Assembly (NCBI GenBank): GCA_034521445.1
Contig: JAXHMM010000005.1
Location: forward strand, 372,001-436,000
Source of the DNA: Balneolaceae bacterium
GTDB lineage: Bacteria; Bacteroidota; Rhodothermia; Balneolales; Balneolaceae
Direction of reading: 5' to 3'
Length of the DNA stretch: 64,000 bases
The notes beneath the pieces were generated by a model. The model saw only the letters and a list, made by a program, of their open reading frames with translations. It was not told where the DNA came from and made no database searches. Positions 19,982 through 38,702 of this stretch are shown piece by piece. Every line of letters begins with the position of its first letter. The stretch's first letter is position 1. A program made the translations under genes and the position numbers.

Positions 19982-20092
19982 AAAGGTGTGTCCTGGATGG
20001 AGGTGACGCGGGCCCTGTTGTTTGGACTGAATTAATAAATTAAGTTGTCAAAAATATCCACTTAACGCGGCCCAAGCAACCAGCAAACGTAT

Positions 20093-21307
20093 ATGGACAT
20101 CAATCCCCTGGAGACGGAACAGATCGGCATCAAGACCCTCGAGAAGCAGCTGATGAAATCCAAGTCCCGCGTCTCCCTCAAAATCGGCCTGCCCAGGGAG
20201 ATCTCCAATGACGAGCGGCGCATCTCCCTGACGCCCGGCGGGGTGTCGGTGCTGAAATCCAACGGCCACGAAATCTACATCGAACAGGACGCGGGGGAGG
20301 AGGCCAACTTTTCCGACAGCGAATACGCCGACGCGGGCGCCGAGATTGCCTACTCGGCCGAGGAGCTCTACAAACAGAGCGAGATGATTCTGAAAGTGGC
20401 GCCCCCCTCCAGGGAGGAGTTCGAGCTGCTGCAGCCGCGCCAGATCCTGCTCTCCGCCCTTCACCTGGGCGGGGCAACGGAGGAATTTCTGGACGTCCTC
20501 ATCCGGAAGAATATCACCGCCATCGGCTACGAGTTCATACAGAGCGAGGACAAGGAGTTTCCCATCGTGCGGATGATGCACGAGATCACCGGTTCCATGG
20601 CCGTGCAGATCGCCGCCCACTACCTGGAGAAGAGCGACGGTGGACCCGGTATCATGCTGGGGGGTATTTCGGGCATCCCGCCGGCCACCGTGGTGATCCT
20701 GGGGGCGGGAATCACGGCCGAATACGCCGCCCGCACCGCCCTGGGCTACGGGGCGCAGGTCTTCGTGATGGACAACGACCTGGCCCTCCTTCGCCACCTT
20801 GAAAACGCGCTGGACCGGCGCATTATCACCGCCACGGCCAACTACCAGTACCTCAGCTCGGCCCTGAAGTACGCCGACGTGGTCATCGGGGCGGCCATGT
20901 TTGAGGGAGAGCGCGCCCCCGTGTGGGTCACCGAGTCGATGGTAGCCAGCATGAAGGCGGGCAGCGTGATCGTGGACACGGTCATGGACCAGGGAGGGTG
21001 CATCGCCACCAGCCGCGCCACCTCCCACTCCGAGCCGGTGTTTTCGGAGTACGATGTCATACATTACTGCGTGCCCAACATCCCGTCCAACGTGGCGCGC
21101 ACGGCCACCTACGCCCTCAACAACGTGCTGGCAAGTTACCTGCTGGCCATAGGCGACGCCGGGGGCATCCAGCAGTGCCTCTGGTCGAACACCGCCCTGC
21201 GCAACGGCACCTACATCTACAAAAAACACCTGACCAAGAAGGCGCTGGCCAGCCAGTTCGACATGCCCTACCGCGACATTGAAATGCTCATCGCAAGCCA
21301 GATCTGA
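20093..21307 (+). CDS. ald: Alanine dehydrogenase
   Basis: A 404-residue NAD-dependent alanine dehydrogenase/PNT family enzyme interconverting alanine and pyruvate plus ammonia. GLPREISNDERRISLTPGGV, a Lys in LKVAPPSREEF, HEITGSMAVQIAAHYLE and the Rossmann loop VILGAGITAEYAARTALGYG are visible, followed by SVIVDTVMDQGGC and VPNIPSNVARTATYALNN. It carries ~28 extra N-terminal residues compared with shorter family members; a start at the ATG of codon 21 is possible. The small membrane-protein gene follows 10 bp after the stop, suggesting a shared transcript. Confidence 0.9.
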   Translation: MDINPLETEQIGIKTLEKQLMKSKSRVSLKIGLPREISNDERRISLTPGGVSVLKSNGHEIYIEQDAGEEANFSDSEYADAGAEIAYSAEELYKQSEMILKVAPPSREEFELLQPRQILLSALHLGGATEEFLDVLIRKNITAIGYEFIQSEDKEFPIVRMMHEITGSMAVQIAAHYLEKSDGGPGIMLGGISGIPPATVVILGAGITAEYAARTALGYGAQVFVMDNDLALLRHLENALDRRIITATANYQYLSSALKYADVVIGAAMFEGERAPVWVTESMVASMKAGSVIVDTVMDQGGCIATSRATSHSEPVFSEYDVIHYCVPNIPSNVARTATYALNNVLASYLLAIGDAGGIQQCLWSNTALRNGTYIYKKHLTKKALASQFDMPYRDIEMLIASQI

Positions 21308-21317
21308 GCCACCCCGC

Positions 21318-21683
21318 ATGGCCCCTGACGAGCTGAATCCCTCCAACTACCGGCGCATCTCTTATATCAACTGGGTGATCACCCTGCCGCTGGCCATTCT
21401 GTTTGCCTGGCCCTATTTGTACCTGGGGAGGCTGGCCGGCATCGAAAGCTGGGCCCTCTATCCCGGCAGCATTTTATTTGCCGCGCCCTTCGTGCTGACC
21501 ATCCTGCACGGGCACGCCACGCTGGCGCTGGGATCCCTGCACCGGGGCCGCTACTACGAATGGCTGGAGCACAAGCCCCTGACGTTCGGACTGCTTTTTC
21601 ATCCGGTGCTGGCGAGCACGCGGCTGCGCCTGGCGCTGTTGGTAGTGAGCGTGGTTATTTTCCTGGTGACTTGGGCTATATAA
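21318..21683 (+). CDS. Small integral membrane protein, unknown function
   Basis: A 121-residue protein starting MAPDELNPSNYRRISYINWV, 10 bp after ald. It has three predicted membrane helices (about residues 18-40, 48-68, 99-119), with HGHATLALGSLHRGRYYEWL between helices 2 and 3. I do not recognise the family. Codon use matches its neighbours, and the operon position makes it likely real. A link to alanine or nitrogen metabolism is suggested only by position. Confidence 0.65.
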   Translation: MAPDELNPSNYRRISYINWVITLPLAILFAWPYLYLGRLAGIESWALYPGSILFAAPFVLTILHGHATLALGSLHRGRYYEWLEHKPLTFGLLFHPVLASTRLRLALLVVSVVIFLVTWAI

Positions 21684-21739
21684 GTCTGCAAAGTCTTAAA
21701 GTCAGGAAGTCGGGAAGTCGGGAAGTCGGGAAGTCGGAG
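21682..21739. repeat. AAGTC microrepeat tract
   Basis: Seven AAGTC units spaced 7-9 bp apart (AAGTCTGC, AAGTCTTA, AAGTCAGG, then four AAGTCGGG/GG) run directly from the stop codon of the membrane protein gene. The same unit makes up tracts at 37132-37220 and, inverted, 37847-37938. It lies ~60 bp before element copy 5. Confidence 0.85.
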
Positions 21740-21796
21740 GATATAAATTTGCCGGTAGGGGGGTCCCCATTTCGGGCAAATTTCTCCAGTCTATTT

Positions 21797-21887
21797 TTGT
21801 GAAAAAATCACAAACACTTCGCACGCAAACCCCGATTCTTCCCCATAAGCCCCCACGGGTCGATTTGAATTTGTGAAAAAATCACAA
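21797..21887 (-). repeat. Paired-palindrome element, copy 5 (diverged)
   Basis: TTGTGA-AAAAA-TCACAA occurs at 21797-21813 (centre 21805) and 21871-21887 (centre 21879), 74 bp apart as in all other copies. Intervening sequence is unlike the others. Flanks keep traces: ATTTCGGG..AAATTT on the left resembles the reverse complement of the element end. The rest of 21684-22055 shows the AAGTC tract and no gene. Confidence 0.85.
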
Positions 21888-22055
21888 ATATAAGACACCG
21901 AAAAAGGGTCCTGTGGGGGGGGGTGATACTCACGATCAGGTGCAACGAATAGGAAGTGCCCGATGGGAAGTGCCTACGGGGATATGCCTGACGTGATGAA
22001 ACGAACTGGAAGTGCCGGCTCACCCGAGAGTACTGCCTCACCCGGGAGCCCTACA

Positions 22056-23954
<1,899 letters not shown>

Positions 23955-24116
23955 AATAGGGTTCCTTGCTGGAAAATTTCTGGTTTGGGCCCGCGGCGCG
24001 ATGGCCTTCGGGGATGCGGACGTGGCAGCGCACTTGCTGCGCCGGTTGACTGCATGGCCGCAGATCTCCGGGCTCCTCCCGCCGCCCTCTTAAATAATCT
24101 GTCCTGCCCGTGATAA

Positions 24117-25817
24117 TCAAGTGGGATCCTCGGGCTGTTCAACGGCCTCCGCCGGGTAGCGGATGGTCTCCACCAGCTCGCGGATCTCCTCCGGCGGTCG
24201 GGCCGTCATGCGGGAGACGGTCAGGGCCACTGCCAGGTTGACGCACATGGCCACCGTGCCGAAGCCTTCGGGCGAGATGCCCCACCACCAGTCGGCCTCC
24301 GTCCCGCCGCCGAAGCCGCCCAGCTTGTACTTGATCATGTAGAAGAGCATGAGCAGGATGCCCACCACCATCCCCGAGATGGCCCCTTCGCGGTTCATGC
24401 GCTTGTCAAAGATGCCCAGGATGATGGCCGGGAAGAAGGAGGCGGCCGCCAGTCCGAAAGCCAGGGCCACCGTCGCCGCCACGAAGCCGGGTGGATTGAT
24501 GCCGAAGTAGCCGGCCACCAGCACCGCGAAACCCGCGGCGATGCGCGCCCAGATCAGTTCGGCCTTCTCGGTGATGTTGGGACGTATCTGCTTCTTGATA
24601 AGGTCGTGGGAGATGCTGGTTGAGATGACCAGCAGCAGGCCCGCCGCCGTGGAGAGGGCCGCGGCCAGTCCCCCGGCGGCCACCAGGGCGATCACCCAGT
24701 TGGGGAGGCCGGCAATTTCGGGGTTGGCAAGCACCATAATATCCTGGTCGATCTGCAGCTCGTTGCGGCCCGGATCGGGCAGATACTGAATCCGCCCGTC
24801 CTCGTTCTTGTCCTCGAACGCTATGAGGCCGGTCGTCTCCCAGTTGTCAAACCACTGCGGCACCTCGCTGTACTGCTCCTCGGAGACCGTCTCGATGAGG
24901 TTTACCCGCGCGAAGGCGGCGATGGCTGGGGCGGTAGTGTAGAGGATGGCGATGAAAAGCAGGGCGTAGCCCACCGACTTGCGGGCGTCGCGTACCTTCG
25001 GCACGGTAAAAAAGCGCACGATCACGTGGGGGAGGCCGGCCGTGCCCACCATCAGGGCAAAGGTGATGGCAAAGACGTCGATGGTGGACTTGGTGCCGGA
25101 GGTGTACTCGGCAAAGCCCAGCTCGTTGTGGAGCTGGTTGAGCTTCTCCAGCAGGTAGGTGCCCGAGCCGTCGGCCAGCGTGCTGCCGAAACCGGCCTGT
25201 GGCAGCCATACGCCGGTAAGCTGAATGGAGATGAAAATAGCGGGCACCATGTAGGCAAAGATGAGAATGCAGTACTGGGCCACCTGGGTGTAGGTGATGC
25301 CCTTCATGCCGCCCAGCACGGCGTAGAAGAAGACGATGCCCATGCCGATGAAGACCCCGAGATTGATAGGCACCTCCAGGAAACGTGCGAAGACCACCCC
25401 CACCCCGCGCATCTGTCCGGCCACATAGGTAAAGGAGACGATCACCGCGCAGATCACCGCCACGGTACGCGCCCAGTTGGAGTAGTAGCGGTCACCGATG
25501 AAATCGGGTACGGTGAACTTGCCGAACTTGCGCAGGTAGGGCGCAAGCAGCATGGCCAGCAGCACATAGCCGCCGGTCCACCCCATAAGGTACACCGCCC
25601 CGTCGTAGCCCATAAAGGCGATGAGTCCGGCCATGGAAATGAAGGAGGCGGCCGACATCCAGTCGGCCGCGGTGGCCATGCCGTTGGCTAGGGGAGGCAC
25701 GCGGCTGCCCGCGATGTAAAAGTCGCTCGTGGAGCCGGCCCGCGACCAGATGGCGATGCCGATGTAGAGCGCAAAGGTCAGTCCCACCAGCAGGTAGGTC
25801 CACGTCTGTATGCCCAT
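24117..25817 (-). CDS. Sodium:solute symporter large subunit (acetate-type)
   Basis: A 566-residue SSS transporter with 13-14 membrane helices: WTYLLVGLTFALYIGIAIW, SDFYIAGSRVPPLANGMATA, ADWMSAASFISMAGLIAFMG, and AGGLAAALSTAAGLLLVIS. A large hydrophilic loop after the seventh helix (DKNEDGRIQYLPDPG) is typical of the two-component VC_2705-like subfamily that pairs with DUF4212. The small subunit lies 80 bp upstream and acsA 162 bp downstream, so acetate or another short monocarboxylate is the likely substrate. It is close to ActP but should not be given that name without a tree. Confidence 0.92.
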   Translation of the reverse strand: MGIQTWTYLLVGLTFALYIGIAIWSRAGSTSDFYIAGSRVPPLANGMATAADWMSAASFISMAGLIAFMGYDGAVYLMGWTGGYVLLAMLLAPYLRKFGKFTVPDFIGDRYYSNWARTVAVICAVIVSFTYVAGQMRGVGVVFARFLEVPINLGVFIGMGIVFFYAVLGGMKGITYTQVAQYCILIFAYMVPAIFISIQLTGVWLPQAGFGSTLADGSGTYLLEKLNQLHNELGFAEYTSGTKSTIDVFAITFALMVGTAGLPHVIVRFFTVPKVRDARKSVGYALLFIAILYTTAPAIAAFARVNLIETVSEEQYSEVPQWFDNWETTGLIAFEDKNEDGRIQYLPDPGRNELQIDQDIMVLANPEIAGLPNWVIALVAAGGLAAALSTAAGLLLVISTSISHDLIKKQIRPNITEKAELIWARIAAGFAVLVAGYFGINPPGFVAATVALAFGLAAASFFPAIILGIFDKRMNREGAISGMVVGILLMLFYMIKYKLGGFGGGTEADWWWGISPEGFGTVAMCVNLAVALTVSRMTARPPEEIRELVETIRYPAEAVEQPEDPT

Positions 25818-25841
25818 AAGTACCGTAGCTATAGGTTATGC

Positions 25842-25872
25842 GGTGCCGGGGTGCCGGGTGCCGGGTGCCGGG
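25842..25872. repeat. GTGCCGG tandem microrepeat
   Basis: Four 7-8 bp units GGTGCCGG in tandem between the small and large symporter genes, on the untranslated stretch of the operon. Possibly a slippage site; no coding effect. Confidence 0.8.
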
Positions 25873-25897
25873 CGACCTCCGGATTCCGGTCGGGGTC

Positions 25898-26155
25898 CTA
25901 CTCCTCGTGCACCCCGAAGCGGCGGTCCAGCCGGTTCATCAGCCAGACGTAGACAAAAATAAGGACCACGAACACGTAGATGGAGCCCTGCTGGGCGAAC
26001 CAGAAACCCAGCTTGAAGCCTGCCACCTGGATCTCGTTGAGCTGCTCGACCAGCAGGATGCCGAATACGTAGGAGACCAGGAACCAGACGGCCAGCAACG
26101 AGCCCACATAACGCAGATTGGCGCGCCAGTAAGCCTTTCTGTTTTTACGTTCCAT
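25898..26155 (-). CDS. DUF4212 symporter small subunit
   Basis: An 85-residue membrane protein with two helices (about residues 15-37 and 53-73) and the DUF4212 pattern YWRANLRYVGSLLAVWFLVS, FWFAQQGSIYVFVVLIFVYV, MNRLDRRFGV. This family is encoded immediately upstream of VC_2705-type sodium:solute symporters and is thought to be their small subunit. Position, strand and length all fit. First gene of the acetate uptake cluster. Confidence 0.92.
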   Translation of the reverse strand: MERKNRKAYWRANLRYVGSLLAVWFLVSYVFGILLVEQLNEIQVAGFKLGFWFAQQGSIYVFVVLIFVYVWLMNRLDRRFGVHEE

Positions 26156-26244
26156 CCCTGGGTGTCTGTATGCCTTCGGTTTAGGTTCCCCCCGAACTAA
26201 AATAAATTTCGGTAATAATCAACTGAGAGCACGCCGCCGGACGG

Positions 26245-26811
26245 CTATAGTTTCCACTTGCGCTTGAAGCAGTGGTGCAGCCGGCTCAGGATGCGTGATT
26301 TCCTGGTGCGTACATTGGCCCCGCTCAGGTTGAAAAGCCTGCTGACCTCCTTGGTGCTGGCGTCGGGCTTTTCAATGAAATACTCGATCAGCTCACGGGA
26401 CTCCTCCTCTAGCTCCTCAAGGCACTCCTTCAGGATGCGCTGGCGGTCCTCATCCATCAGGTTCTCCACTTGCTGGGCCGGCGTGGTGAGGTGTTCCGAC
26501 TTCTCCTCCTCCGGAGAAGTAAAGCGGTGCTGTTCCTTGTAGAAACGCATGTATTCGTTGCGGCAGGCCTGGATGAGATAGCTGAAGATGTACTTCTCCC
26601 TGCGGATATTGCCCTGCAGAATCTGCTCATAGACGTTGAAAAAGGCCTGCTGTATGCACTCTTCGGCATCCCTGGGATCGGCATCCATGGTGACCTCCAG
26701 GTAGTCCTTCAGCCGGGGAAGAAGCTCTTCGAGCAGCTCGTTGGCCTGTCCATCCTTGTGCTGTTTCAGGGCCGCGACCAGTTCCGAATAATCAAGTCTG
26801 GAGGTACTCAA
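26245..26811 (-). CDS. ECF-type RNA polymerase sigma factor
   Basis: A 188-residue extracytoplasmic-function sigma factor. Region 2 is RDAEECIQQAFFNVYEQIL to FSYLIQACRNEYMRFYKEQH, including the core-binding and -10 recognition helices. Region 4 is ECLEELEEESRELIEYFIEK to TKEVSRLFNLSGANVRTRKS, the helix-turn-helix for -35 contact. It is divergent from the twin lipoprotein and CHAT genes across a 504 bp AT-rich gap. No anti-sigma gene is adjacent; the best partner is the membrane TPR protein at 31300-32031 on the far side of the CHAT gene, which has an anti-sigma-like N-terminus. That pairing is inference. Confidence 0.92.
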   Translation of the reverse strand: MSTSRLDYSELVAALKQHKDGQANELLEELLPRLKDYLEVTMDADPRDAEECIQQAFFNVYEQILQGNIRREKYIFSYLIQACRNEYMRFYKEQHRFTSPEEEKSEHLTTPAQQVENLMDEDRQRILKECLEELEEESRELIEYFIEKPDASTKEVSRLFNLSGANVRTRKSRILSRLHHCFKRKWKL

Positions 26812-27315
26812 TGGTTATCAGCCAATTTATGTGGATGGGCCCCTTCCTCCCTACCATTTGAGAAATCGGAACCATTTAACGTCCTCGGAAAATATATAAT
26901 TATTGACCGACCATACCAAGGTATTCGATGATAAGAATCATGAAAGAGTATAAAATATTGCCTTATGGAGATGCATAAGTATTAGGGCTAGATTATTTTA
27001 AATAATTAACTTACCATGCATACTGTACCGTCTCCCGGGAACCGATATGCTCCTGGGTATTCATCTTAACCATACAGGCAACTATATATTTATATATAGG
27101 GATTTGTTACAAATTAAATTTTTGGGTCCATGTTCTAAAAAACCTGATTTTTTTTGTAACAATTGCCCTTGAAAATACTCTTGTAGTCGAGAAGGGGTTT
27201 AAAAAATGGCCAGAATGGGTACCGGCCTGCGGCGAACATCGCCGATCCTTCCCTTCGCACAAGTTTACCTTAAGAACAACCAAACAACTAACCAAAACCT
27301 ACACAGGTACCTACC
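26812..27315. other. AT-rich divergent control region
   Basis: A 504 bp gap between the sigma gene (minus) and the lipoprotein genes (plus), much AT-richer than neighbours. It holds an 18 bp near-palindrome CTATATAT-TT-ATATATAG at 27082-27099 and two related motifs, TTTGTTACAAA near 27103-27113 and TTTTGTAACAA near 27152-27162. No ORF or clear -35/-10 pair of standard type was found. It is the obvious place for control by the sigma factor. Confidence 0.5.
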
Positions 27316-27513
27316 ATGAAAGCTCTGACAACCAAGATCCTTTCCATCGTCTTCATCTTCGCCCTCATCTCCGGGTGCGCGTCCGTAACCGACGCCGGAC
27401 TCCAGGATGCCAACGGTGACCTTTCCAGCGACGCCAATATCGAGGCTCCGAACCCCGATGCTTTCGGTGACGCCGAGGTGAAGCCTATCATCATAAAGCC
27501 AGAAGGCGAATAG
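27316..27513 (+). CDS. Small lipoprotein, copy 1
   Basis: A 65-residue protein: leader MKALTTKILSIVFIFALISG with lipobox ISGC, then a 45-residue acidic mature part (SVTDAGLQDANGDLSSDAN and AEVKPIIIKPEGE). I do not recognise the family. The mature part differs from copy 2 (27569-27766) at one residue only (Gly/Asp after DAN), so the duplication is recent. Coding is supported by conserved frame and by silent third-base changes. Both copies precede the TPR-CHAT gene on the same strand and may be co-transcribed with it. A role as signal, inhibitor or substrate of that protease is speculation. Confidence 0.8.
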   Translation: MKALTTKILSIVFIFALISGCASVTDAGLQDANGDLSSDANIEAPNPDAFGDAEVKPIIIKPEGE

Positions 27514-27568
27514 TCTATAATATTCATCGATGGATAATCCATTTTTTAAATCAAAGAGGAATAGCCTT

Positions 27569-27766
27569 ATGAAATCCCTGACCACCAAACTTCTTTCCGT
27601 CCTGTTCATCTTCGCCCTTATCTCCGGATGCGCGTCCGTAACCGACGCCGGACTCCAGGATGCCAACGACGACCTTTCCAGCGACGCCAATATCGAGGCT
27701 CCGAACCCCGATGCTTTCGGTGACGCTGAGGTGAAGCCCATTATCATAAAGCCGGAAGGCGAGTAA
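27569..27766 (+). CDS. Small lipoprotein, copy 2
   Basis: A 65-residue near-duplicate of the protein at 27316-27513, offset by 253 bp. I take the ATG at 27569, matching copy 1 (MKSLTTKLLSVLFIFALISG) and preceded by a GAGG ribosome-binding site 12 bp upstream. Differences cluster in the leader; the mature peptide is almost unchanged, which points to constraint on the exported part. A hairpin TCCCGGA-N7-TCCGGGA at 27797-27817 follows but lacks a T-tail, so read-through into the CHAT gene is plausible. Confidence 0.8.
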   Translation: MKSLTTKLLSVLFIFALISGCASVTDAGLQDANDDLSSDANIEAPNPDAFGDAEVKPIIIKPEGE

Positions 27767-27939
27767 CGGCTGACTGGGTTATTCGTCTATCTTAGATCCC
27801 GGACTCTAGCTCCGGGACATCAATTCCGCTGACCACTGGCGACGGGAATACGCCCGGCGTCAATACGTTGTACGGCTGCTGTCCTGCCCCCTATTCCTAT
27901 GGGTATTGGCAGCGCTTTGTGTTATCATGATCCTCTCTT

Positions 27940-30900
27940 ATGGATTCAAGCCGTTTGCCATACCGGTTCCTTCTACGGCTGATGGGAGCCGTTCTCATCC
28001 TGGGCACAGCGTATCCCTGCCACCCTGTCCACGCCATGCAGAACCAGGACGCGGAAATTCTTCAGCAGTCCCGCGAACAGGCACGCAATTACATTGCCAA
28101 CATCCGTCAGGAGCGCAATCTTGAACAAAACCTCTGGGCGCTTGCCGCTCTTGCCGACGCCAGCGGAGAAATCAATTCCTACATCGGTAGTTACCTCTCC
28201 TCCGATTCGATTAAAAATCCCCTTCTCGCATCCTTTCGGGACACCTCCCTGAGTTACGGCGAACGGCTGCGCGATACGGCTATCCAGCAGAAGTCACCTG
28301 CCCTGCTGCTCGCCTATTTCCTGGCAGAAAGCGACTCCCTCCAAAAAGAAACGGTCTATTCGGAGTTTCCCTTCCAAAGTATTTCGGGCAATACAAATTA
28401 CCGCCGTCTGGCCAGGTCCCTGCTGAGACGATACCCCGATCACCCGAGAAATCCTGTCTCCGAATAATCTCACCCTTTCACACTTTCTGCTCATCTACTA
28501 TTCCGCCGGGCGGAGCATTCTTCCAGCCGAGTACCTGGAAGCCGTGGCCTCTGTCTCCCCGGGAGAGGATAAGGAGGGATCCAGTCTGCCGCATACCCTA
28601 AATGTGATGACGGTCTTCCAGGCTGATTACCGCCTCAGCAACTACTCCACAGCACAGGAATATTACGCCTTGTTATCGGATGTCTCCCACTTTCCCAATT
28701 CCAGGTTCAAGATGTACCTGTTCAATTTCCTTGACTTTTCGCTCTATCAGTCGGGGAACACCGACCTCAGCCTGGAAGCCATGCGAAACTACACGATCCC
28801 TTTGTCTTCCTTTCTGGGACGGCCTGATCTGCAGCTGGGCATGAATCATCAACCGCGGCGGCTATCTCTACGAAATCGGCAAGATGCAGGAGGCACAGGA
28901 GGTCTACCAGCAAGTCGTTCAGAGCGCCGATGAGCTGGGCTATGCCGTCCCCCAGTCCATCCTATACAATAATCTGGCGGTCACCTATAAAAAAATGGGG
29001 GATTTTGACCAGTACCTGGAGCTGCAGTTCCAGGCCCTGAACAGCATCGAGGAGGGCGAGGATTACGAAAATCACTTCAGAATCCTGGAGAACCTCTTCA
29101 TCCACTACCGCAACACGCGAAACTTCGATTCGGCCCTCAACTACCTGGCGGAGGCGCGCCAGCTGGCTGCCGACCACGGGGCCATGGACGATCTGGCCTG
29201 GGTGAACCTCTACACCGGCATGGCCTACCGCGACTACCAGGAAAACTACGCGATGGCCGAAGCCTACATGGATTCGGCCTCACGGCAGGTAAACGCCGGC
29301 GAAAACTACGACCGGAAGCAAACCATCTATGCCGAGCGCGGCCATCTCTATATGGATCAGGGGCACTACGACCGGGCCCTGGCCATGCAGGACAGTATTC
29401 TGTATGAAGCGCGCCTGGCAGGTAACCAGTCCGACCTGCTGGAGGCCTATATCACCAAGGCGCGTATCTACCTGGAGCTGGATGATCCGGACGAGGCCGG
29501 ACGTTTTGTGGCGAGGTTTGATACCATGGACCTCTCCACGCTGCGATTTGAGCAGATCGTGGAGGCCCGAACCACAAAGTCCCGCCACCTCTACGAAACC
29601 GGGCGAACGGATGAAGCCTATGCCCTCCTCCAGCCTACCATGGATCAGCTGGTGGACTGGGTGCGGGGGAGCACCGAGCTACAGACCGGTTACTGGAACC
29701 TGGCCCCGGAATTCAGCGATGCATTTCAGCTTGTGGCCGACCTGCTGATCGAGACCGGCAGGCAGGGCGAGGCGGTGGAGGTGCTGGACCAGCTCAAGTC
29801 CATCAACGACGCCAGCCTCTACCAGAATCCCTTGGTGCGTTCCAGCATCCTCTCCGAAAGCGAGCTTACCGAATACAAGCAGCTCACGACACAACTGGAC
29901 GGGCTCCGCCGTTCCCTGCTGGCTGCCGCCGACAGCAACCGCGCCGGTATCCAGCAGCGCATCGACGAGCTGGCCGCTCAGAAGCAGCGCCTGGACCGGC
30001 GCCTCTCCACGGTGACCAACCACGATCCGGTTTCTGTGAGGTTTGTACAGTCGCGGCTTAGCGCCCGCGAGCAGGTGCTGCACATCACCGAACTGGAGGA
30101 CCGCTACTACATCGCCCGGATCACCCGAAGGGACGTCGCCTTCCGCACCGTACCGCTGGACTCGGTCAACCGCGCCCTCTTCCAAGAGTCGGTGGAGCAG
30201 ATCGCCAACAAGAACACCGACCTGCTGAACCTCCACCGCATTTCGGAGCTGATGGGTTTTGACGAGCTGGATCCCTCCATGGAGAGGGTCACCGTCATAC
30301 CCGACAGCTACCTCTACCAGATTCCCCTGGACATTATGCCGGTAACACGGCCCGAATACTCCTACAGTTACGGGAGCGCCAGCTACCTGGTCGAGGAGGT
30401 GGAGGTGCGCTATCTCACCTCCCTGAACGACTACCGAAAATCGGACCGGCAGGCGACGGCCTCTTCCCGCCGAACCGGCTACGCCGGATACGGCATCTCC
30501 ACCTTCGAAAACTACCGCGACCGCGGGCTGGTCTCCCTCCCCTATGCACGCCGCGAGGTGGAAAACATCGGCGGGGCGCTGACCAACCTGGCCAGCCGCA
30601 GCGTCTACCTCGATTCCGCATCCACCGAAGAGCGCTTCAAGGCCACCGCTCCCCACGCGCGCATCCTGCACCTGGCCACCCACAGCCAGGTGTCCGACCG
30701 GGACCCCCTCTTCTCGCGTATCTTCATGAGTCGTACGGACACGGTGAGCGGTGAGGAACAGTTTCCGGGTCAGATTTTCGCCTACGAGCTTTTCGAGCTT
30801 AACCTCAACAACGAGCTCATCATGCTGAACTCCTGTGAATCGGGATCGGGCGGCTACCTGCAGGGCAGCGGGGTGATGGGCATCAGCAGGGCCCTGCGCT

Positions 30901-31232
30901 ACGCGGGTGCGCAGACCCTGGTGCTGAATCTCTGGTCGGTGAACGACATGATGGCCTCGGATTTTGCCCTGCAGTTCTACAAGGGACTCAACCGTGGGAT
31001 GAGCAAGCCTGAGGCGCTGCGCCAGGCCAAGCTCCACTTCCTCAGGAACAAGAACGCCAATCCCCATTTCTGGGGTCCCTACATGATGATCGGCGACAGC
31101 GAGCCGGCCATACGGCCCTACGAGCAGTGGAACTACGTGGTGGCGGGCTCGTTCATGCTCTACTTCCTTCTCTTCGTGGGCGGCTCCCTCTACTACCGGC
31201 GCCGCAACGCTTTCTCTCGCTCCTCTTCATAG
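27940..31232 (+). pseudogene. Secreted TPR-CHAT caspase-like protease, two frameshifts
   Basis: Three consecutive frames (27940-28467, to ~28850, then 28870-31232) form one ~1090-residue protein with two +1-type breaks, near 28435 and 28855. A signal peptide (RFLLRLMGAVLILGTAYPC) leads into helical TPR-like repeats (AQEVYQQVVQSADELGYAVP, NYLAEARQLAADHGAMDD). The C-terminal CHAT domain keeps the His in ARILHLATHS (codon 30681) and the Cys in MLNSCESGSG (codon 30834). A last membrane helix (VVAGSFMLYFLLFVGGSLYY) and basic tail predict anchoring in the inner membrane with the protease outside. CHAT domains are caspase/separase-like cysteine proteases. Without the breaks the enzyme would look active. 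Confidence 0.82.
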
Positions 31233-31299
31233 AAAAGGCACATCTTTTGAGGATGTGCCTTCTCCGGAAGCTATCGTATGAGTCGTCTCGGGTATATTC

Positions 31300-32031
31300 C
31301 TAACGGGCCAGTGCTTCCAGGTAGCTCTGAGCCACCCGGCGGTAGGCGCCGTTGAGCGCGTAGGCCTTCTGGATGTTTTCGCGTGCGTCCTCCAGGCGTT
31401 CCATTTGGAAGTAGGTGTTGCCCAGGTACCAGTAGGCCTTTTCAAGGGTGAGCACATCCACATCGTCGCGGTGCCCGATGACCGTCTCGTAATGGGGGAT
31501 GGCATCGGGATACTGCCCCTCGTTGTAGTAGAGGGATCCCAGCGTAAGGCTTACCTCCGATTCCCAGGCGGGCGTGATGTTTTCGGTCTGGAGCTCGCTA
31601 TTCAGCAGGGTGACGGCCTGCTGGAACTGGCCCGTATTGGCCAGGGTGATGGCACGCGTGATGACCGTGGCGCCGTTCTCGGCGGCCCCTTCGGCAGAGC
31701 GGTAGTAGTCAAGCTCGATGCTCTGGACGGGCTGCACGTCGGAGGTGCCGGTAAAATCGGTGACATTCATGACCAGCATGACGCCCAGGAAAAGAGTGAT
31801 CACTGCGGCAGCCGCGTAACTCCATATCCTGCGGATACGGGCCTGCCTGCGTTTTTTGACCTCTTTTTCAACAACCGCCTTGACGTTGGCTACGCTGCGA
31901 AGATAGTCCAGGTGGTAGGGATCCTGCACCAGTTCGGCCCAGAGTTCGTCTATTTCGGCGGGAGAAAGCTTGCCGTTGACGTATCGGTCAATTTTCTCTT
32001 CCAGTTCCTCTTCGTTAAAACTCTCGATCAT
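31300..32031 (-). CDS. Membrane TPR protein with anti-sigma-like N-terminus
   Basis: A 243-residue single-pass protein. Residues 1-60 (EEKIDRYVNGKLSPAEIDEL, DPYHLDYLRSVANVKAV) resemble the helical cytoplasmic sigma-binding segment of Bacteroidota anti-sigma factors, without zinc ligands. A basic stretch RRQARIRRIW precedes the membrane helix (about 70-90). The outer part has TPR-like units: ANTGQFQQAVTLLNSELQ, LGSLYYNEGQYPDAIPHYET, LGNTYFQMERLEDARENIQK. It is convergent with the CHAT gene (68 bp). The predicted topology puts its TPR domain in the same compartment as the CHAT protease, so cleavage and sigma release is an attractive model. The anti-sigma role is inferred from pattern and locus only. 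Confidence 0.72.
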   Translation of the reverse strand: MIESFNEEELEEKIDRYVNGKLSPAEIDELWAELVQDPYHLDYLRSVANVKAVVEKEVKKRRQARIRRIWSYAAAAVITLFLGVMLVMNVTDFTGTSDVQPVQSIELDYYRSAEGAAENGATVITRAITLANTGQFQQAVTLLNSELQTENITPAWESEVSLTLGSLYYNEGQYPDAIPHYETVIGHRDDVDVLTLEKAYWYLGNTYFQMERLEDARENIQKAYALNGAYRRVAQSYLEALAR

Positions 32032-32571
32032 AACGGTGGTTCCTCTGCTTTAACCTGCCCTGCAGGAGTTCTGCCTCTGCTCCCGCAAGATGGTAAGTTT
32101 CTCGATGCCGTGCCATCGCCTTCTGGTATGCACGCATGTACCTTGTACATGCCAGCGTGGCGATGTGCCGTCTGGGAGGCATATTGCGACCTCCTTTGTT
32201 TCGTCGTTTCATATACAAGAGTATCCTGCAGCCCGATTGTTACAGAATAATGCATTTATTTTGTTAAAATCTTCTAATAAACGGTCCGAATCCACCTCTC
32301 CCCGGTGATATGGGGATTTTGGAGGCTTCCGGCCACCTGCCGGTGCAGGTCCACGGTATCGGCTTTTACCATGATACGATATCAGGGAAAATACGTAATT
32401 CTCCCGGCTGGCGCAGCCGAAGGAATCCCTCCTCTGTGCGAGCAGCCGGCTCATTCCCTCCGGGGACGGCGCGTTCAGACGACCGGCAGGGAACCGGCAC
32501 CCTTGCATAGCCGCCCCAGACTCGTATACTAGGACATCGGTACCCACAACCCTGAACCCAATCCTCATGTC
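32032..32571. other. Gene-free divergent region with inverted repeats
   Basis: A 540 bp gap between the TPR/anti-sigma-like gene and the GH3 gene. It contains a nested inverted repeat at 32114-32165 (CATCGCC..GGCGATG outside, GCATGTAC-CTT-GTACATGC inside) upstream of the minus-strand gene, and ACCTGC-CGGT-GCAGGT at 32335-32350. Short open frames here are low quality and overlap on both strands; I see no supported gene. Confidence 0.5.
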
Positions 32572-33687
32572 ATGAACCTACGCTCCCTGCTGCTCCTGCT
32601 TCTCATCCCCCTCTGCGCCGCCTGCGCCCAGCAGCAGGACGACGAAGAACTGGACAGGCGCATCGGACAGATGCTGATGACGGGTTTCAGGGGACTGGAA
32701 CTGGCCGACTCCCTGCAGGTGTCCGATGATCTGCGGGAGGGGCGCCTGGGCGGGGTGATCCTCTTCGACTACGACGTGCCGGCAGACACCTCCCTGCGCA
32801 ACATCCGCTCGCCGGAGCAGCTGCGCGCCCTTACCGCCCAGCTGCAGGAACGCTCCCCCACGCCCCTTTTCATCGCCATCGACCAGGAAGGGGGACGCGT
32901 GTCGCGTCTGAAAGAGCGGTACGGCTTTCCCTCCACCGTCTCCGCCGCACGGCTCGGCACCCAGCCGCTCGACTCCACCCGTTTCTACGCCCGGCGCACG
33001 GCGGCCGTGCTGGACAGCATGGGCGTCAATTTCAACTTCGCCCCGGTGGTGGACCTCGATGCCAACCCGGACAACCCGGTGATCGGGGGACTCGATCGCG
33101 CCTTCTCGGCCGATCCCGATACGGTCTACCGCCGCGCCAAAGCCTGGATACGCGCCTCCCGCCGCCGTGGCGTGATCACCGCCCTCAAACACTTTCCGGG
33201 CCACGGCAGCTCCGCAGGCGACTCCCACCTGGGGGTGGTGGACGTGACCGACACCTGGAGTGAGCGCGAGCTGGCGCCCTACCGGCGGCTCATCGGCCAG
33301 GGGCTGGCCGACGCAGTGATGACGGCGCACATTTTCAACCGCGACCTCGACCCCGAGTGGCCGGCCACTCTCTCCCGCGAAATCATCGGCGGGGTGCTCA
33401 GGGACAGCCTGGGATTCCGGGGGGTGGTGGTGTCGGACGACATGCAGATGGGGGCCATCCGGCAGGAGTACGGCCTGGAGACCGCCATCCGCCGCGCGCT
33501 GCTTGCAGGGGTGGACCTGCTGGTTTTCGCCAACAATTCGGTCTACCAGCCCAATATCACGCAGCGGGCTCACGGCATCATCCGCCGCCTGGTGGAGGAG
33601 GGCACCGTTCCGCGTGAGCGCATCGACCGCTCCTGGGAGCGCATCATGGCCCTCAAAAGGGAGTACGGGCTGCTTCCGGGTCCCTGA
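32572..33687 (+). CDS. GH3 beta-N-acetylhexosaminidase (NagZ-like), exported
   Basis: A 371-residue family 3 glycosidase. The leader [18 protein letters not shown] has a lipobox, so this is an exported lipoprotein, unlike cytoplasmic NagZ of E. coli. Motifs are [30 protein letters not shown], and [18 protein letters not shown], the loop carrying the NagZ-type His/Asp general acid. The nucleophile Asp lies in [12 protein letters not shown]. Likely action is removal of GlcNAc from peptidoglycan fragments or related glycans. It stands alone, divergent from the anti-sigma-like gene. Confidence 0.93.
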
Positions 33688-33714
33688 ACGGGAACCCTCG
33701 AAGCGGCGCCCCCC

Positions 33715-36465
33715 TCAGTTGCCGCCGCGGTAGGGCACGCCCTCCTCAATCCAGTCGGGCGCCGGCATCCCGCGCAAGTAGTGGTCGAAGTACTCCTTCA
33801 TCTTGACGGCGTAGTCCAGCCGGTTGCCGTAGCGCTGCAGGTGGTGCGGCTCGTTGTGATACTGCAGGAAAACCGCGTCCTTGCCCAGCCGGCGCATGGC
33901 CAGGTAGAGCTCGATGCCCTGGTACCAGGGCACGGCGGTGTCCTCGTCGCCGAACATCAGCATGAGGGGCGTCTCGATGCGGTCGGCGAAGAAGACGGGC
34001 GAGTTCTCGATGTAGCGCTCGGGGTACTCCCAGAGGCTGCCGCCGATGCGGCTCTGCGTCTGCTCGTACTGGAACTGCCGGGCCAGTCCGCTGCCCCAGC
34101 GAATGCCGCTGTAGGCGCTGGTCATGTTGGAGACCGGCGCGCCGGCGATGGCCGCGTCAAAGATGTCGGTCTCCGTGATAATGTGCGCGGTCTGGTAGCC
34201 GCTCCAGGAGTGGCCGTGCAGCCCCAGCTTGTCGGGGTGGGCGATGCCCATGTCGATGAGCTTAAGAATGCCCGGCACCAGGCTCTTGACCGAGGAGGGA
34301 CCGGGAAAGCCTACCGTGAAATGCACGTCGGGCAGAAAGACCACGTAGCCGTCGCTCACATACTGCGGCAGCACGGGGCGGTCGTCGTTGGTGATGTTGT
34401 TGAACTCGTAGGCCCGCTGGGAGAAGAAGCGGTAGAAATAGGTCATGACCGGGTAACGCTGGTCCGGGTCGTAGTCGTCCGGCTTGATCACCGCGCCGCG
34501 GACCGTATCGCCCTTCACGTCGGTCCACTGGATGATCTCGGCGCGTCCCCAGTTGTAGTCGGCATGCAGGTTGTCGTGCAAGTCGGTGAGCTGCCGGGTT
34601 TCGGAGAAATCCATGCCCTCGCTCACCCAGATGTTGGGGTAGAGGTCGTAGCTCTCCTTGGTGAAGAGGATGCGGTCGGCGTCGTCAGCCTGCTGGCCCA
34701 CCTCGTAGTTCAGCGGCTCGCCCAGGAGCTCGGTGGTGCCGCGGCGGTCCAGGCGCATGGAAAAGAGTCCCTCGTACTTCTCCCGGTCGTAGAAGGCCTC
34801 CAGCAGCAGGCGCTCGTCCGGCGCAAAGTAGTCGCGGTCGTAGTCCAGCCGCTCGATGCGGTAGGTCAGGTGACGCTGCCGCCCGTCCCGGGTGAGGTTG
34901 GCCGCCTCGCCCGATTCGGTGTCAAAGCTCCAGATATCGTACTTGTCGTAGACCAGCACCTGCTCTTCGCCCTCGATCCAGCCGGCCACGCCGTAGCCCG
35001 GCGTCGGGGAGGGATAGTCGTGATCCTCGTCCCAGAAAGGGACCTCCATCCCGTCCGTCAGGTTCTGCGTGCTCTCCTCGCCCACATCGTAGAGGTGCCA
35101 GTCCTTGTCGCGGAAGTAGAGGGCGTAGTTGCCGCCGGGGGAGAGCTCCACCCCACCGTCCAGGCGCTCGGTAATGAGGGTTTTCTCGCCCGTCCGCAGG
35201 TCCATGATATAGTAGTCGCTGTAGAAGCCGTCCCAGGTCATCTGCTTGCGGTAGGGCATGCTTGAGCTGGCGAGGGTAACCTCGGGGTCGTGGTTGGCCT
35301 CCACATCGGGAACCTCCTCGGTCGCCAGCTGCACATATTCGTCGGTGTCAAGGTGGTAGACGGCGCGGTAGAGCTGGCCCTTGCGCTGGTTCCAGGTCTC
35401 CCGCTCATGGGTCTTGATCAGCGGATCGTCCCAGTGCCACACGTCCACGCTCTTCTCATCGAGAATCTCCTGCATGTCGTAGGGATCCGCCTCCCCCTCG
35501 TCCTCTTCACCGCTGTCGCCCGAGCCCGGCAGGTCGGCCTCCATCAGCTCGCGGTTCTGCACGCCGAAGAAGAGGCGGTTGTTGTCGCGGGTCCACTCCA
35601 GGTCGTTGTCCGAGCGCAGCCACCACTGTTCGGGCACCTCGGAGCCGGCCACCAGCGTGCGCGTCTGCATGCCGTCGGAAGACCAGAGCTGCAGGTCGGC
35701 CGTACCGCTGAAGTAGGTGGAATCGAGGGGCGCCGAGGTAAAGGCCAGCCGTCCCGTGTCGTGGTCCCATGCCAGGTTGTCGAAGAGCGCGTCCTCCATG
35801 GCGGCCGCGGTGTGGGTTGCTCCGCCGCCGGAGAGCTCCCGCAGGTAGAGTCCGTTGCCGGAGCCGGAAGTGTCGACTACGCTGTAGGAGAGCCAGGTTG
35901 AGGTGCTGTCGAAGGCCATGTCGGAGACGAAGGAGAGCTCCTCGTTGGCGCCCGACTGCAGGTTCATAAGCCGCAGCGGGGCTCCCAGGTGACCGTTGTC
36001 GTCGTAGGCCTCGGAAACGGAATCGGCCAGCATCCTGCGGATGGCCAGCCAGCGTCCGTCCTCGGAAAACTGGAAGGAGCTCACGCTGTCGATCTCCTGC
36101 ACGTCGCCGCTGCCGGTGTTCAGCAGGAACATGCCCTGCACGGGGGCGTCGTCCCCTTCGGCGCCGAAAGGCACCTCGCGGTAGGCCCCCACCCACTGCC
36201 CGTCGGGCGTAATGGCGGGGTCCTCGCCCAGTTCAAGGGTATAGCCGGTGTCCCCCTCCACGCTGCGCACGCGCACCTCCCCGTCCCCGCGGTCGGGCCA
36301 GACCTCATAGGCCAGCCACTGGCCGTTGCCGGAGATCACCTCGCCGGAAAGGTCCTCCCAGCGCATGATGTCTTCGAAGGTGAGCTGCCGGTCCTGGGCC
36401 TGCAGGGCGCCGGAGCAGAAGAGGGTGAGCAGGAGGAGAGTGCCGAAAAAGCTAGTGGGTTTCAT
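33715..36465 (-). CDS. S9 family prolyl oligopeptidase, exported
   Basis: A 916-residue serine peptidase. A signal peptide (residues 1-23, ending GALQAQ) is followed by a long beta-propeller (WD-like blades such as FSEDGRWLAIRRM, ELSPGGNYALYFRDKDWHLY). The C-terminal alpha/beta-hydrolase carries the nucleophile Ser at residue 755 in GLHGHSWSGYQTA, Asp in MFGDEDTAVPW and His in NEPHHLQRYGNRLD. It would clip short peptides in the periplasm or outside. It is larger than typical S9 members and resembles the ~900-residue S9 peptidases common in Bacteroidota. Convergent with the GH3 gene, 27 bp apart. Confidence 0.95.
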   Translation of the reverse strand: MKPTSFFGTLLLLTLFCSGALQAQDRQLTFEDIMRWEDLSGEVISGNGQWLAYEVWPDRGDGEVRVRSVEGDTGYTLELGEDPAITPDGQWVGAYREVPFGAEGDDAPVQGMFLLNTGSGDVQEIDSVSSFQFSEDGRWLAIRRMLADSVSEAYDDNGHLGAPLRLMNLQSGANEELSFVSDMAFDSTSTWLSYSVVDTSGSGNGLYLRELSGGGATHTAAAMEDALFDNLAWDHDTGRLAFTSAPLDSTYFSGTADLQLWSSDGMQTRTLVAGSEVPEQWWLRSDNDLEWTRDNNRLFFGVQNRELMEADLPGSGDSGEEDEGEADPYDMQEILDEKSVDVWHWDDPLIKTHERETWNQRKGQLYRAVYHLDTDEYVQLATEEVPDVEANHDPEVTLASSSMPYRKQMTWDGFYSDYYIMDLRTGEKTLITERLDGGVELSPGGNYALYFRDKDWHLYDVGEESTQNLTDGMEVPFWDEDHDYPSPTPGYGVAGWIEGEEQVLVYDKYDIWSFDTESGEAANLTRDGRQRHLTYRIERLDYDRDYFAPDERLLLEAFYDREKYEGLFSMRLDRRGTTELLGEPLNYEVGQQADDADRILFTKESYDLYPNIWVSEGMDFSETRQLTDLHDNLHADYNWGRAEIIQWTDVKGDTVRGAVIKPDDYDPDQRYPVMTYFYRFFSQRAYEFNNITNDDRPVLPQYVSDGYVVFLPDVHFTVGFPGPSSVKSLVPGILKLIDMGIAHPDKLGLHGHSWSGYQTAHIITETDIFDAAIAGAPVSNMTSAYSGIRWGSGLARQFQYEQTQSRIGGSLWEYPERYIENSPVFFADRIETPLMLMFGDEDTAVPWYQGIELYLAMRRLGKDAVFLQYHNEPHHLQRYGNRLDYAVKMKEYFDHYLRGMPAPDWIEEGVPYRGGN

Positions 36466-36589
36466 GGTGGGGAATTGAATTCCAGGTTGCTACTAAAAAA
36501 ACGTATTTCCCCCACAGATACAATCTTTTGGAGCTAAGAAGGTTGTTGCGTTACTTCACAGTGCGCGGCGTCAATCAGTTTAATCGACT

Positions 36590-37162
36590 ATGGAATTCAC
36601 CTACCAGGACCTGATCGCAGACTTCGAGGAGGCCGGCAGGTCGGCCGAGAATTTTCTGTCCTCCCTCTCGGACGAACACTTCCGAACGAGTCCCGCTCCC
36701 GGACGCTGGTCGCCCGCCGAATGCTTCGACCACCTTCTGCACTTCAATCGCAACTACCTCAGGAGCATGCGGGAGGCCGACGATGGCCTGGAGCCCGCCG
36801 CGGCCCCGGCCAAGAAAGCCTTCCGTCCCAGGCTGCCCGCGCGCTGGGTAGTCTCCTTCTTCGAGCCGCCCTACAAAATGAAGGTCAAAACCCTGGATCC
36901 CTTCAAACCCGGCGAGGCCGTGGACCTGGACCGCGAGGAGATCCTGGCAGATTACCTTGAGCTGCAGCAAACCTTCATCGGGCGGATCCGGGAGGAGGTT
37001 CGCGGACAACGCGACCTGGAGCAGGTGGGCGTGCGCCACCCCCTCTTTCCGTGGCTGCGCATGAGTCTTGTAGAATGCTATGCTGTTATCCTGGCTCACC
37101 AAAGGCGACATCTTTGGCAGGCTCAAAAAGCTTTAAAGTCTTTAAAGTCTATCAAGTCATAA
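36590..37162 (+). CDS. DinB-family protein
   Basis: A 190-residue four-helix DinB/DUF664-type protein with PAPGRWSPAECFDHLLHFNR in the first helix pair and VILAHQRRHLWQAQKA near the end; the His residues in these two places probably bind a metal, as in DinB_2 proteins. Enzymatic role unknown; thiol transferases occur in the superfamily. The last residues (ALKSLKSIKS-stop) and the stop codon are encoded by the AAGTC microrepeat tract that starts at 37132, so the native C-terminus has been replaced or extended by repeat DNA. Confidence 0.85.
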   Translation: MEFTYQDLIADFEEAGRSAENFLSSLSDEHFRTSPAPGRWSPAECFDHLLHFNRNYLRSMREADDGLEPAAAPAKKAFRPRLPARWVVSFFEPPYKMKVKTLDPFKPGEAVDLDREEILADYLELQQTFIGRIREEVRGQRDLEQVGVRHPLFPWLRMSLVECYAVILAHQRRHLWQAQKALKSLKSIKS

Positions 37163-37220
37163 AGTCGGAAAGTCTGACTTCAAGTCATAAAGTCTATAAA
37201 GTCAGAAAGTCTTGAAGTCG
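37132..37220 (+). repeat. AAGTC microrepeat tract, left of four-helix gene
   Basis: About ten AAGTC units spaced 7-9 bp apart (AAAGTCTTT, AAAGTCTAT, CAAGTCATA, AAAGTCGG and so on) run from inside the DinB gene to 37220. It is nearly the reverse complement of the tract at 37847-37938. Together they bracket the gene at 37269-37643. Confidence 0.88.
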
Positions 37221-37268
37221 GGGAGTTGCAGGCGGCATCCACCACCGTTTGAACGCGTCGTTTGCCTG

Positions 37269-37643
37269 TCACCTGGCTGAACTCTTTCTCAGGTACCGCA
37301 CGAAGGCCAGGCAGAGAAAGCGGACGTCCGATGCCTTGGCAAAGGCCTGGCCGAATTCCTCCTTGTCGATATACTTCTGGTCCACCGCCACATAGAGCAG
37401 GCTCTTCACTTCTTCGCATGAGCTCTGGGCGATATCCAGGAAGCGTATAAATTCCCGGTCCGAAAAGCGCGCGAATCCCTCCGCAATATTACTCATGGAC
37501 GACACGGCAGCCTTCCGTATCTGGTCTTTCAGTCCAAAATCGTGAACAAACGACGCATTCCTGGTAAGATCATATACCAAATGCACAAGGTCTCTTGCAG
37601 CGGTCCAGCATTCCAGATCTTCAAACGATTCGATGCGACTCAT
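37269..37643 (-). CDS. Four-helix bundle (S23/IVS-type) protein
   Basis: A 124-residue protein, start taken at the ATG at 37641-37643 (MSRIESFEDLECWTAARDLV); an in-frame extension to 37760 is repeat-derived. The pattern LVYDLTRNASFVHDFGLKDQ, IRKAAVSSMSNIAEGFARFS and LDIAQSSCEEVKSLLYVA is that of the 23S rRNA intervening-sequence/four-helix-bundle family, related to Avd of diversity-generating retroelements. No reverse transcriptase or variable repeat is nearby. Function is unknown. The gene is bracketed by inverted AAGTC tracts, which suggests it moves or is maintained as a cassette. Confidence 0.9.
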   Translation of the reverse strand: MSRIESFEDLECWTAARDLVHLVYDLTRNASFVHDFGLKDQIRKAAVSSMSNIAEGFARFSDREFIRFLDIAQSSCEEVKSLLYVAVDQKYIDKEEFGQAFAKASDVRFLCLAFVRYLRKSSAR

Positions 37644-37696
37644 GGCTCCTTTTTTGGTATCTGCGATGGGTTGATGGGTGAAATATTTATGGGTAT

Positions 37697-37730
37697 GTAC
37701 GTTGAGGGTGCGTACGTTGAGAGTGTGTAC
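37697..37730. repeat. 15 bp tandem repeat upstream of four-helix gene
   Basis: GTACGTTGAGGGTGC and GTACGTTGAGAGTGT in tandem, followed by a third GTAC. It lies ~55 bp upstream of the four-helix-bundle start, on the promoter side of that gene. The rest of 37644-37994 holds the right AAGTC tract and no gene. Confidence 0.8.
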
Positions 37731-37846
37731 AATGATGGTACCTATATCAATCCGGCACATCCAATCGAAGCACGGTACCTCTCATCAGACCCGGGCGGAC
37801 GCCTGCACTTACGCAACCTCTTCACTCATTTATCGAATACTCCCCC

Positions 37847-37938
37847 GACTTCCAGACTTATCAGACTTCTAGACTTCTAGACTTCCAGACTTATCAGACT
37901 TTCTGACTTATCAGACTTTTAGGACTTATAAGACTTCA
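37847..37938 (-). repeat. Inverted AAGTC (GACTT) tract, right of four-helix gene
   Basis: About eleven GACTT units spaced 7-9 bp, in the opposite orientation to 37132-37220. The stretch CAGACTTTCTGACTTATCAG closely matches the reverse complement of the left tract. It ends ~55 bp before the TetR-type gene. Confidence 0.88.
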
Positions 37939-37994
37939 TATAGTGTTAGGGCCATGAACGACAATAACCCGAAGGCCAACGGCACACCCGAGCT

Positions 37995-38702
37995 ATGATC
38001 GACCTGGACCAATTTGACGCCGACGCCTTCCAGGCGCGCTACGACATCATGGAGGCGGCCATCCCCGCCTACCTGGAGAAAGGCATGGATTTCACCCTCA
38101 AGGAGGTCGCCCGCGAGGCGGGCATCACGGTGGGGGAGATTTTCGAATACTTTCCCGATAAGAAATCCATCCTGGAATTCTACTACACCTCTCTGGCGGT
38201 GCGCTACCGGCTGATGCTGGAGGAGATCGACGACTTCGAAGAGTACTCCCTGGGCGAGAAGCTCTCCAACCTGGCCTACACCACCTTCGACATGATGGCC
38301 GAGCAGGAGGCCTTCGTGCAGGCCACCTTCACGGAACTGGTGCTCTGCGCCCGCGGCCGCACCGACTTCGGGAAGGAGATCCGCGGACTGCTGCGCCGCA
38401 TGTTCGAAAACGACGACTACATCCCCTACCTGAACACCATGGTGCTGGGCGGTCGCTTCTACGGACTACTCTACCGCAAATACCTGGCGCTCATACGTTT
38501 CTGGCTGGGCGACGAGAGCGAGGGGCGCCAGCAGACCATGGAGCTGACCGACAAGACCACCGCCCTGGCCGAGGAGCTGATGTACAGCGGGGCCGCTGAC
38601 CGCGGGGTGGACCTGCTGCGCTACCTGGCCGGCAACTCCTTTTTTATCGACCGCATCCCCCTGGTCCGCGAACTGAGATCCAAATTCGAATTCCGAAGCT
38701 GA
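37995..38702 (+). CDS. TetR-family transcriptional regulator
   Basis: A 235-residue regulator. The N-terminal DNA-binding three-helix unit reads YDIMEAAIPAYLEKGMDFTL, KEVAREAGITVGEIFEYFPD, KKSILEFYYTSL, close to TetR helices 1-4 but with Gly-Glu-Ile-Phe in the recognition helix. The C-terminal ligand-binding part is all helical. Its TGA stop shares one base with the ATG of the UbiB-like kinase (TGATG), so the two are translationally coupled and probably regulate or serve one process. Ligand unknown. Confidence 0.85.
   Translation: MIDLDQFDADAFQARYDIMEAAIPAYLEKGMDFTLKEVAREAGITVGEIFEYFPDKKSILEFYYTSLAVRYRLMLEEIDDFEEYSLGEKLSNLAYTTFDMMAEQEAFVQATFTELVLCARGRTDFGKEIRGLLRRMFENDDYIPYLNTMVLGGRFYGLLYRKYLALIRFWLGDESEGRQQTMELTDKTTALAEELMYSGAADRGVDLLRYLAGNSFFIDRIPLVRELRSKFEFRS

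Follow-up and report, generated by a model that had tools for sequence, protein, structure and literature searches.

A conserved Balneolales locus of an ECF sigma factor, lipoprotein arrays, an exported CHAT protease and an anti-sigma-like TPR protein: a possible envelope signalling switch

The Balneolales are marine and salt-loving bacteria. The window analysed here, a 64 kb stretch of Balneolaceae DNA, carries an ECF sigma factor gene close to genes for two small lipoproteins, an exported TPR-CHAT protease and a single-pass TPR protein, raising the question of whether a CHAT protease could control a sigma factor from within the envelope. The original prediction had proposed such a release system as an envelope version of type III-E control, in which a Csx29-type CHAT protease has been shown to cut a sigma inhibitor (PMC10028731). 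The literature searched yielded no work joining a CHAT domain, a sigma factor, a lipoprotein and an anti-sigma factor, none on a CHAT domain in connection with Balneola, and no envelope stress pathway for Balneolota. If the proposal holds, it would define such a pathway, explain the role of exported CHAT proteins beside sigma factors in Bacteroidota, and give a clan CD cysteine protease of the envelope the part that DegS plays for RseA; regulation of sigma factors by CHAT would then be a general bacterial device, one that type III-E CRISPR systems perhaps took over. New beyond the original prediction are the promoter, the linker arginine, the frame breaks, the variable copy number, a paralogous second locus, the tail motif and homogenisation of the lipoproteins, and the promoter before a small RNA in four genera.

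Gene content, conservation and predicted topology

The four predicted gene types are all present at the locus: an ECF sigma factor of 188 aa (26245..26811, minus strand; NCBIfam TIGR02937 sigma70-ECF, E=1.6e-14, 53.8 bits against a cut-off of 42.9), two lipoproteins of 65 aa (27316..27513 and 27569..27766, plus strand), a TPR-CHAT protease running from a signal peptide to a C-terminal transmembrane segment (27940..31232, plus strand) and a single-pass, anti-sigma-like TPR protein of 243 aa (31300..32031, minus strand). What did not stand is the CHAT gene as one open frame, as it spans three (27940-28464, about 28427-28930 and 28845-31229); the frame changes around 28402-28430 and again around 28825-28854. 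CHAT relatives are encoded in a single frame of about 1,030-1,090 aa, and elsewhere in this genome a response-regulator gene (L267, G000:C6:438000-443000) is likewise broken over two frames, so the two frame changes are probably assembly indels rather than marks of a pseudogene; programmed frameshifting was rejected on the same grounds. Because the window gene is split, the features of the CHAT protein were read from its relatives.

A close CHAT relative (E < 1e-70) occurs in 73 of 92 Balneolaceae genomes; contig searches returned relatives with an alignment as query and none with the window CHAT. Among the 41 loci read, those long enough to show gene order have the sigma gene on the minus strand, one to six near-identical lipoproteins and the signal peptide-TPR-CHAT-TM protein on the plus strand, and the single-pass TPR protein on the minus strand, the exceptions being two Fodinibius loci without the sigma gene. 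Sigma homologues are 52-71% identical and hold the same position in most loci, and the same order was found again in contigs named Fodinibius, Aliifodinibius, Gracilimonas, Balneola and Rhodohalobacter, a recurrence that argues for more than chance. The co-occurrence check proposed with the original prediction, run across the Balneolales, thus found the genes staying together rather than dispersed. Many contigs start or stop in or beside the lipoprotein array, or have runs of N there, as expected if the repeats break assembly. Two loci (L079, G061:C21, and L122) carry two CHAT genes of the locus type in tandem, and distant CHAT genes are the only ones seen on plasmids. No CRISPR-like array was found between window positions 20000 and 40000, in line with the prediction of a locus without CRISPR; a short tandem repeat of four overlapping copies of GACTTCCAGACTTATCA-like units lies at 37847-37926.

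The CHAT domain (PF12770) is recognised with 171.1 bits against a cut-off of 24 (E=4.7e-50), together with TPRs. The presumed catalytic His (LHLATHS, codon at 30681..30683, plus strand) and Cys (LNSCESG, codon at 30834..30836, plus strand), His893 and Cys943 in the numbering of the relative L082, occupy columns that are invariant in 38 sequences and stay so even among very diverged relatives. An N-terminal hydrophobic segment and a C-terminal transmembrane segment, the latter followed by Arg residues in the window (about 31131..31205, plus strand, from hydropathy), are predicted in 38/38 full-length relatives, as expected for an exported protease anchored by its last helix. Prediction likewise bears out the placement of protease, TPR sensor and lipoproteins on the same side of the inner membrane.

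An AlphaFold model of the CHAT protein of L082, a Fodinibius-type relative (mean pLDDT 86; C-terminal helix at 1039-1064), matched Csx29 (Z 27.1, 491 residues, 7.1 A), separase (Z 24.3, 298 residues, 3.4 A) and DdvA (PDB 8ROT; Z 21.5, 527 residues, 10.9 A), a modelled likeness in fold that shows no function. A sequence search of the PDB with the CHAT domain alone returned no match.

The TPR protein has a single predicted transmembrane segment (residues about 71-89; 31765-31821, minus strand), which is predicted in all its homologues, and its model (pLDDT 86) comprises three N-terminal helices, the third of which continues into the transmembrane segment, followed by periplasmic TPRs. Foldseek matched this protein to TPR proteins only, including peptide-binding TPR structures, and so says nothing about the N-terminal domain. 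The prediction that the N-terminal 65 residues form an anti-sigma domain gains indirect support: CHAT-linked relatives in other Bacteroidota match anti-sigma models below the cut-off, and loss of the promoter accompanies loss of the sigma factor (see below), but a PDB search with the domain found no anti-sigma structure, which counts against a switch. Stand-alone proteins of 61-77 aa resembling this domain are encoded in four further loci (L190, L192, L193 and L194), in two of which the gene adjoins an MreB-like gene; no recognised sigma gene lies near any of the four, a further point against a switch.

The lipoprotein array and its ECF-type promoter

The two lipoproteins of the window, predicted as near-identical, share 91% of their DNA, start 253 bp apart and, in copy 1, show the lipobox ISGC; each ends in a C-terminal PIIIKP (27484-27501 and 27737-27754). 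Homologues are present in the loci with enough upstream DNA, and copy number varies from one to six. Mature lengths range from 39 to 64 residues, and conservation is limited to the lipobox, the early residues, among them an Ala after the lipid-bearing Cys in 35/35, and a C-terminal motif, x[IMV]xx[KR]P, found within the last 20 residues in 32/35; the extreme C-terminus varies. Two of the three lipoproteins without the motif belong to the sigma-less Fodinibius lineages. In most genomes the copies share 90-100% of their coding sequence (63% at the lowest, in L080), whereas identity over the 40 bases that follow a copy is mostly 53-80% and coding parts compared between genomes average 61%, which points to homogenisation of the coding parts within genomes. 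The notion that the lipoprotein tail mimics the juxtamembrane tail of CHAT was rejected as a general rule, because best-window scores beat those of shuffles (p<0.05) in only 8/32 loci, mostly of one clade.

Phylogenetic footprinting identified TGTAACAAA-N15-ACTCTTGT before the first lipoprotein gene, often twice, and the promoter takes the form TGTAACA-N15/16-CTCTTGT at the loci. In the window it precedes the array as TGTAACA-N16-CTCTTGT (27155..27184, plus strand) and recurs before the anti-sigma TPR gene (32215..32244, minus strand). With a relaxed pattern, 71/71 matches in the 41 loci lie at these two places, 37 ahead of the array and 34 ahead of the anti-sigma gene. The entire window holds two TGTAACA-N15/16-CTCTT matches against 0.01 expected, and ten genomes hold 36 strict matches against one for the reversed control. 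One other group of genera has a variant -10 element, CTCTTTATCTG. The motif again precedes the lipoprotein in a different family of the order (L197, L198), where it also lies before a response-regulator gene that is followed by the anti-sigma gene. At the level of sequence, these placements support shared control of array and anti-sigma gene through a single ECF-type promoter.

Our best evidence that the locus sigma factor recognises this promoter comes from two species, Fodinibius roseus and Fodinibius sediminis (L056, L058), which keep the array, the CHAT gene and the TPR protein and have lost the locus sigma gene: no strict copy of the promoter was found anywhere in either genome, from which we infer recognition by the sigma factor. 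Their retention of the remaining genes also suggests that the TPR protein may work with partners other than the sigma factor, which argues against a switch. One of the two has a TPR protein with a shorter N-terminus. Another shared sequence, TGTAGTAATTATTATTAA, lies before the anti-sigma gene in both and before the array in one, and a 719-aa gene whose C-terminus is sensor-kinase-like lies upstream of the TPR protein.

A proposed proteolytic switch and its rivals

The periplasmic linker of the TPR protein contains an isolated motif, P-[IV]-x-x-I-[EG]-[LYF]-[DEN]-x-x-R-[SG], with the Arg present in 56/56 sequences (Arg111, codon at 31699..31701, minus strand, in IELDYYR-S), while the rest of the linker around it is variable and mostly modelled with low confidence. 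R-[SGNA] stands at the equivalent place in most of the distant, CHAT-linked homologues from other Bacteroidota. For separase, the cut falls behind the Arg of an ExxR sequence, and the resemblance of [DEN]xxR-[SG] to that site singles out Arg111-Ser112 as a candidate CHAT cut site; the Arg may instead be structural.

We tentatively favour, at somewhat under an even chance, an envelope signalling switch in which CHAT cuts the TPR anti-sigma protein, the sigma factor is freed, and lipoproteins and new anti-sigma protein are made as feedback. The TPR protein would retain the ECF sigma factor with its cytoplasmic N-terminal domain until an envelope signal led the exported CHAT protease to cut the periplasmic linker, most likely after Arg111, upon which ordinary intramembrane and cytoplasmic proteolysis would release the sigma factor. 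Free sigma factor would then fire TGTAACA-N15/16-CTCTTGT, chiefly before the array, just downstream of which CHAT lies, and before the anti-sigma gene. More speculatively, abundant lipoproteins might damp CHAT and so provide negative feedback together with new anti-sigma protein, their basic-Pro tail being perhaps bindable but hardly cuttable by a protease that cuts after Arg or Lys. The switch is argued for by the conserved gene set, the invariant His and Cys, the predicted membrane topology and the invariant linker Arg, by the promoter placement (71/71 and the other family) and the absence of the promoter where the sigma gene is absent, and by the fold matches to Csx29 and DdvA and the Csx29-type precedent (PMC10028731). 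Its most specific form, in which CHAT, as a caspase/separase-like protease of the envelope, makes the first cut at [DEN]xxR and is checked by sigma-promoted, homogenised lipoprotein arrays acting as uncuttable pseudo-substrates, is considerably more doubtful. The switch model names a precise bond, a defined promoter and a very small lipoprotein as objects for testing.

The strongest rival takes the locus as a DdvA-like receptor in which a ligand reshapes a complex of CHAT and TPR anti-sigma protein and frees the sigma factor without cutting, CHAT being a scaffold or cutting something else. The match to DdvA across both TPR and CHAT parts indicates that one polypeptide can carry both functions, but the invariance of the His and Cys columns over very diverged relatives and of the linker Arg sits poorly with this reading, which we consider unlikely though of some weight. 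The lipoproteins could themselves be the CHAT substrate, a peptide being freed from its lipid anchor as signal or effector and arrays raising the dose. Such a role would suit an array directly upstream of CHAT wherever enough DNA is available, copies homogenised within genomes and conservation limited to the lipobox, early residues and C-terminal motif; yet Pro, which makes a poor P1', comes right after the conserved basic residue, and the sigma/TPR anti-sigma/CHAT sets of other Bacteroidota have no array, making it a distinctly improbable alternative.

Equally hard to favour is a lipoprotein that acts as an activating ligand gauging lipoprotein sorting: transported to the outer membrane under normal conditions, it would accumulate in the inner membrane on a sorting failure, and its tail would then activate CHAT or the TPR sensor. 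In E. coli, Ala at +2 suggests outer-membrane sorting, and Ala follows the lipid-bearing Cys in 35/35 lipoproteins, while the TPR part matches peptide-binding TPR structures. The +2 rule is E. coli's, however, and may not be that of Balneolota; the varying extreme C-terminus argues against simple C-end docking, and the promoter would create positive feedback atop more anti-sigma protein. Very improbable, finally, is an antiphage regulator akin to DdvS in Myxococcus and the Craspase sigma factor: both closest fold relatives belong to antiphage settings (PMC12288465, PMC10028731), but no defence gene stood out in the roughly 25 downstream regions read, PADLOC returned a single weak CHAT match for the four locus proteins, and the locus is near-universal in the family rather than patchy.

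By analogy, we infer that the proposed switch works like Craspase and RseA/DegS control while belonging to neither. With Craspase (Csx29/Csx30/CASP-sigma) the locus shares a TPR-CHAT protein with a His-Cys dyad, together with an ECF sigma factor and its putative inhibitor; unlike the cytosolic Craspase TPR-CHAT, the Balneolales protein is predicted to be exported and membrane-anchored (38/38), the presumed inhibitor is a TPR protein with one membrane pass, and the locus has a lipoprotein array in addition. No CRISPR array lies within 20000-40000 of the window, and none of the conserved genes resembles Cas7-11 (gRAMP). The nearest envelope relative is the fused DdvA of Myxococcus xanthus, a transmembrane anti-sigma factor that aligns with the TPR and CHAT parts of the CHAT protein and whose partner DdvS serves in an antiphage setting (PMC12288465); DdvA is one chain, whereas CHAT and anti-sigma protein are separate genes in all loci read. 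The ECF54 group also has CHAT genes near the sigma factor, with subtilase and carboxypeptidase neighbours, and proteolytic control has been proposed for it, but it is described as acting with no anti-sigma factor (PMC8999054), whereas the Balneolales locus keeps a transmembrane anti-sigma-like protein.

In RseA/DegS and RsiW control, a single-pass inhibitor receives its first cut on the periplasmic side, outside the membrane, the anti-sigma factor is autoregulated and a small RNA depends on the sigma factor. The locus would resemble them in a single-pass inhibitor, a periplasmic first cut, an autoregulated anti-sigma gene and a sigma-dependent small RNA. It would differ in its first protease, which would be a cysteine protease of clan CD and not a serine protease, and in the lipoprotein array, for which they have no counterpart.

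Wider promoter targets and related gene sets

Promoter targets beyond the locus are mixed and include peptidases, pilin-like genes and regulators; they share no theme, which leaves them too weak to name a function and counts against a switch. A target that recurs is a conserved RNA, about 100 nt long, present in 11 genomes of four genera (L277-L288), with the promoter upstream in 10/11 genomes. Its 32-base core, CTAGTCACTCCTAAATGCTGAAACCTAAAGCA (L286, G000:C12:67996-68027), is identical in 10/12 copies, and is preceded by TGTAACA-N16-CTCTT at G000:C12:67906. The RNA has a covarying terminator hairpin, and over the whole fold 10/20 pairs are changed on both sides yet kept; no Rfam family was matched at threshold. 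Its CACUCCU segment could pair with Shine-Dalgarno sequences.

Related sets extend further. Other families of the order (L195-L198) still have a lipoprotein gene immediately before CHAT, and in Bacteroidota outside the order (L145, L146, L202, L204) a sigma/TPR anti-sigma pair lies beside, or a few kb from, an exported CHAT gene, with no lipoprotein array in these sets. The window's genome also carries a paralogous set in the order FtsY-CHAT-M28 peptidase-ScpA-sigma-TPR protein (L011:4359-11722, G000:C6), which recurs in relatives (L206-L208). The array is absent from all of these paralogous sets, and the promoter motif was not found before the genes of those read. A short, divergent acidic ORF of 41-65 aa separates the FtsY and CHAT genes of L011 and L207, and one of this kind precedes the second CHAT gene in L206.
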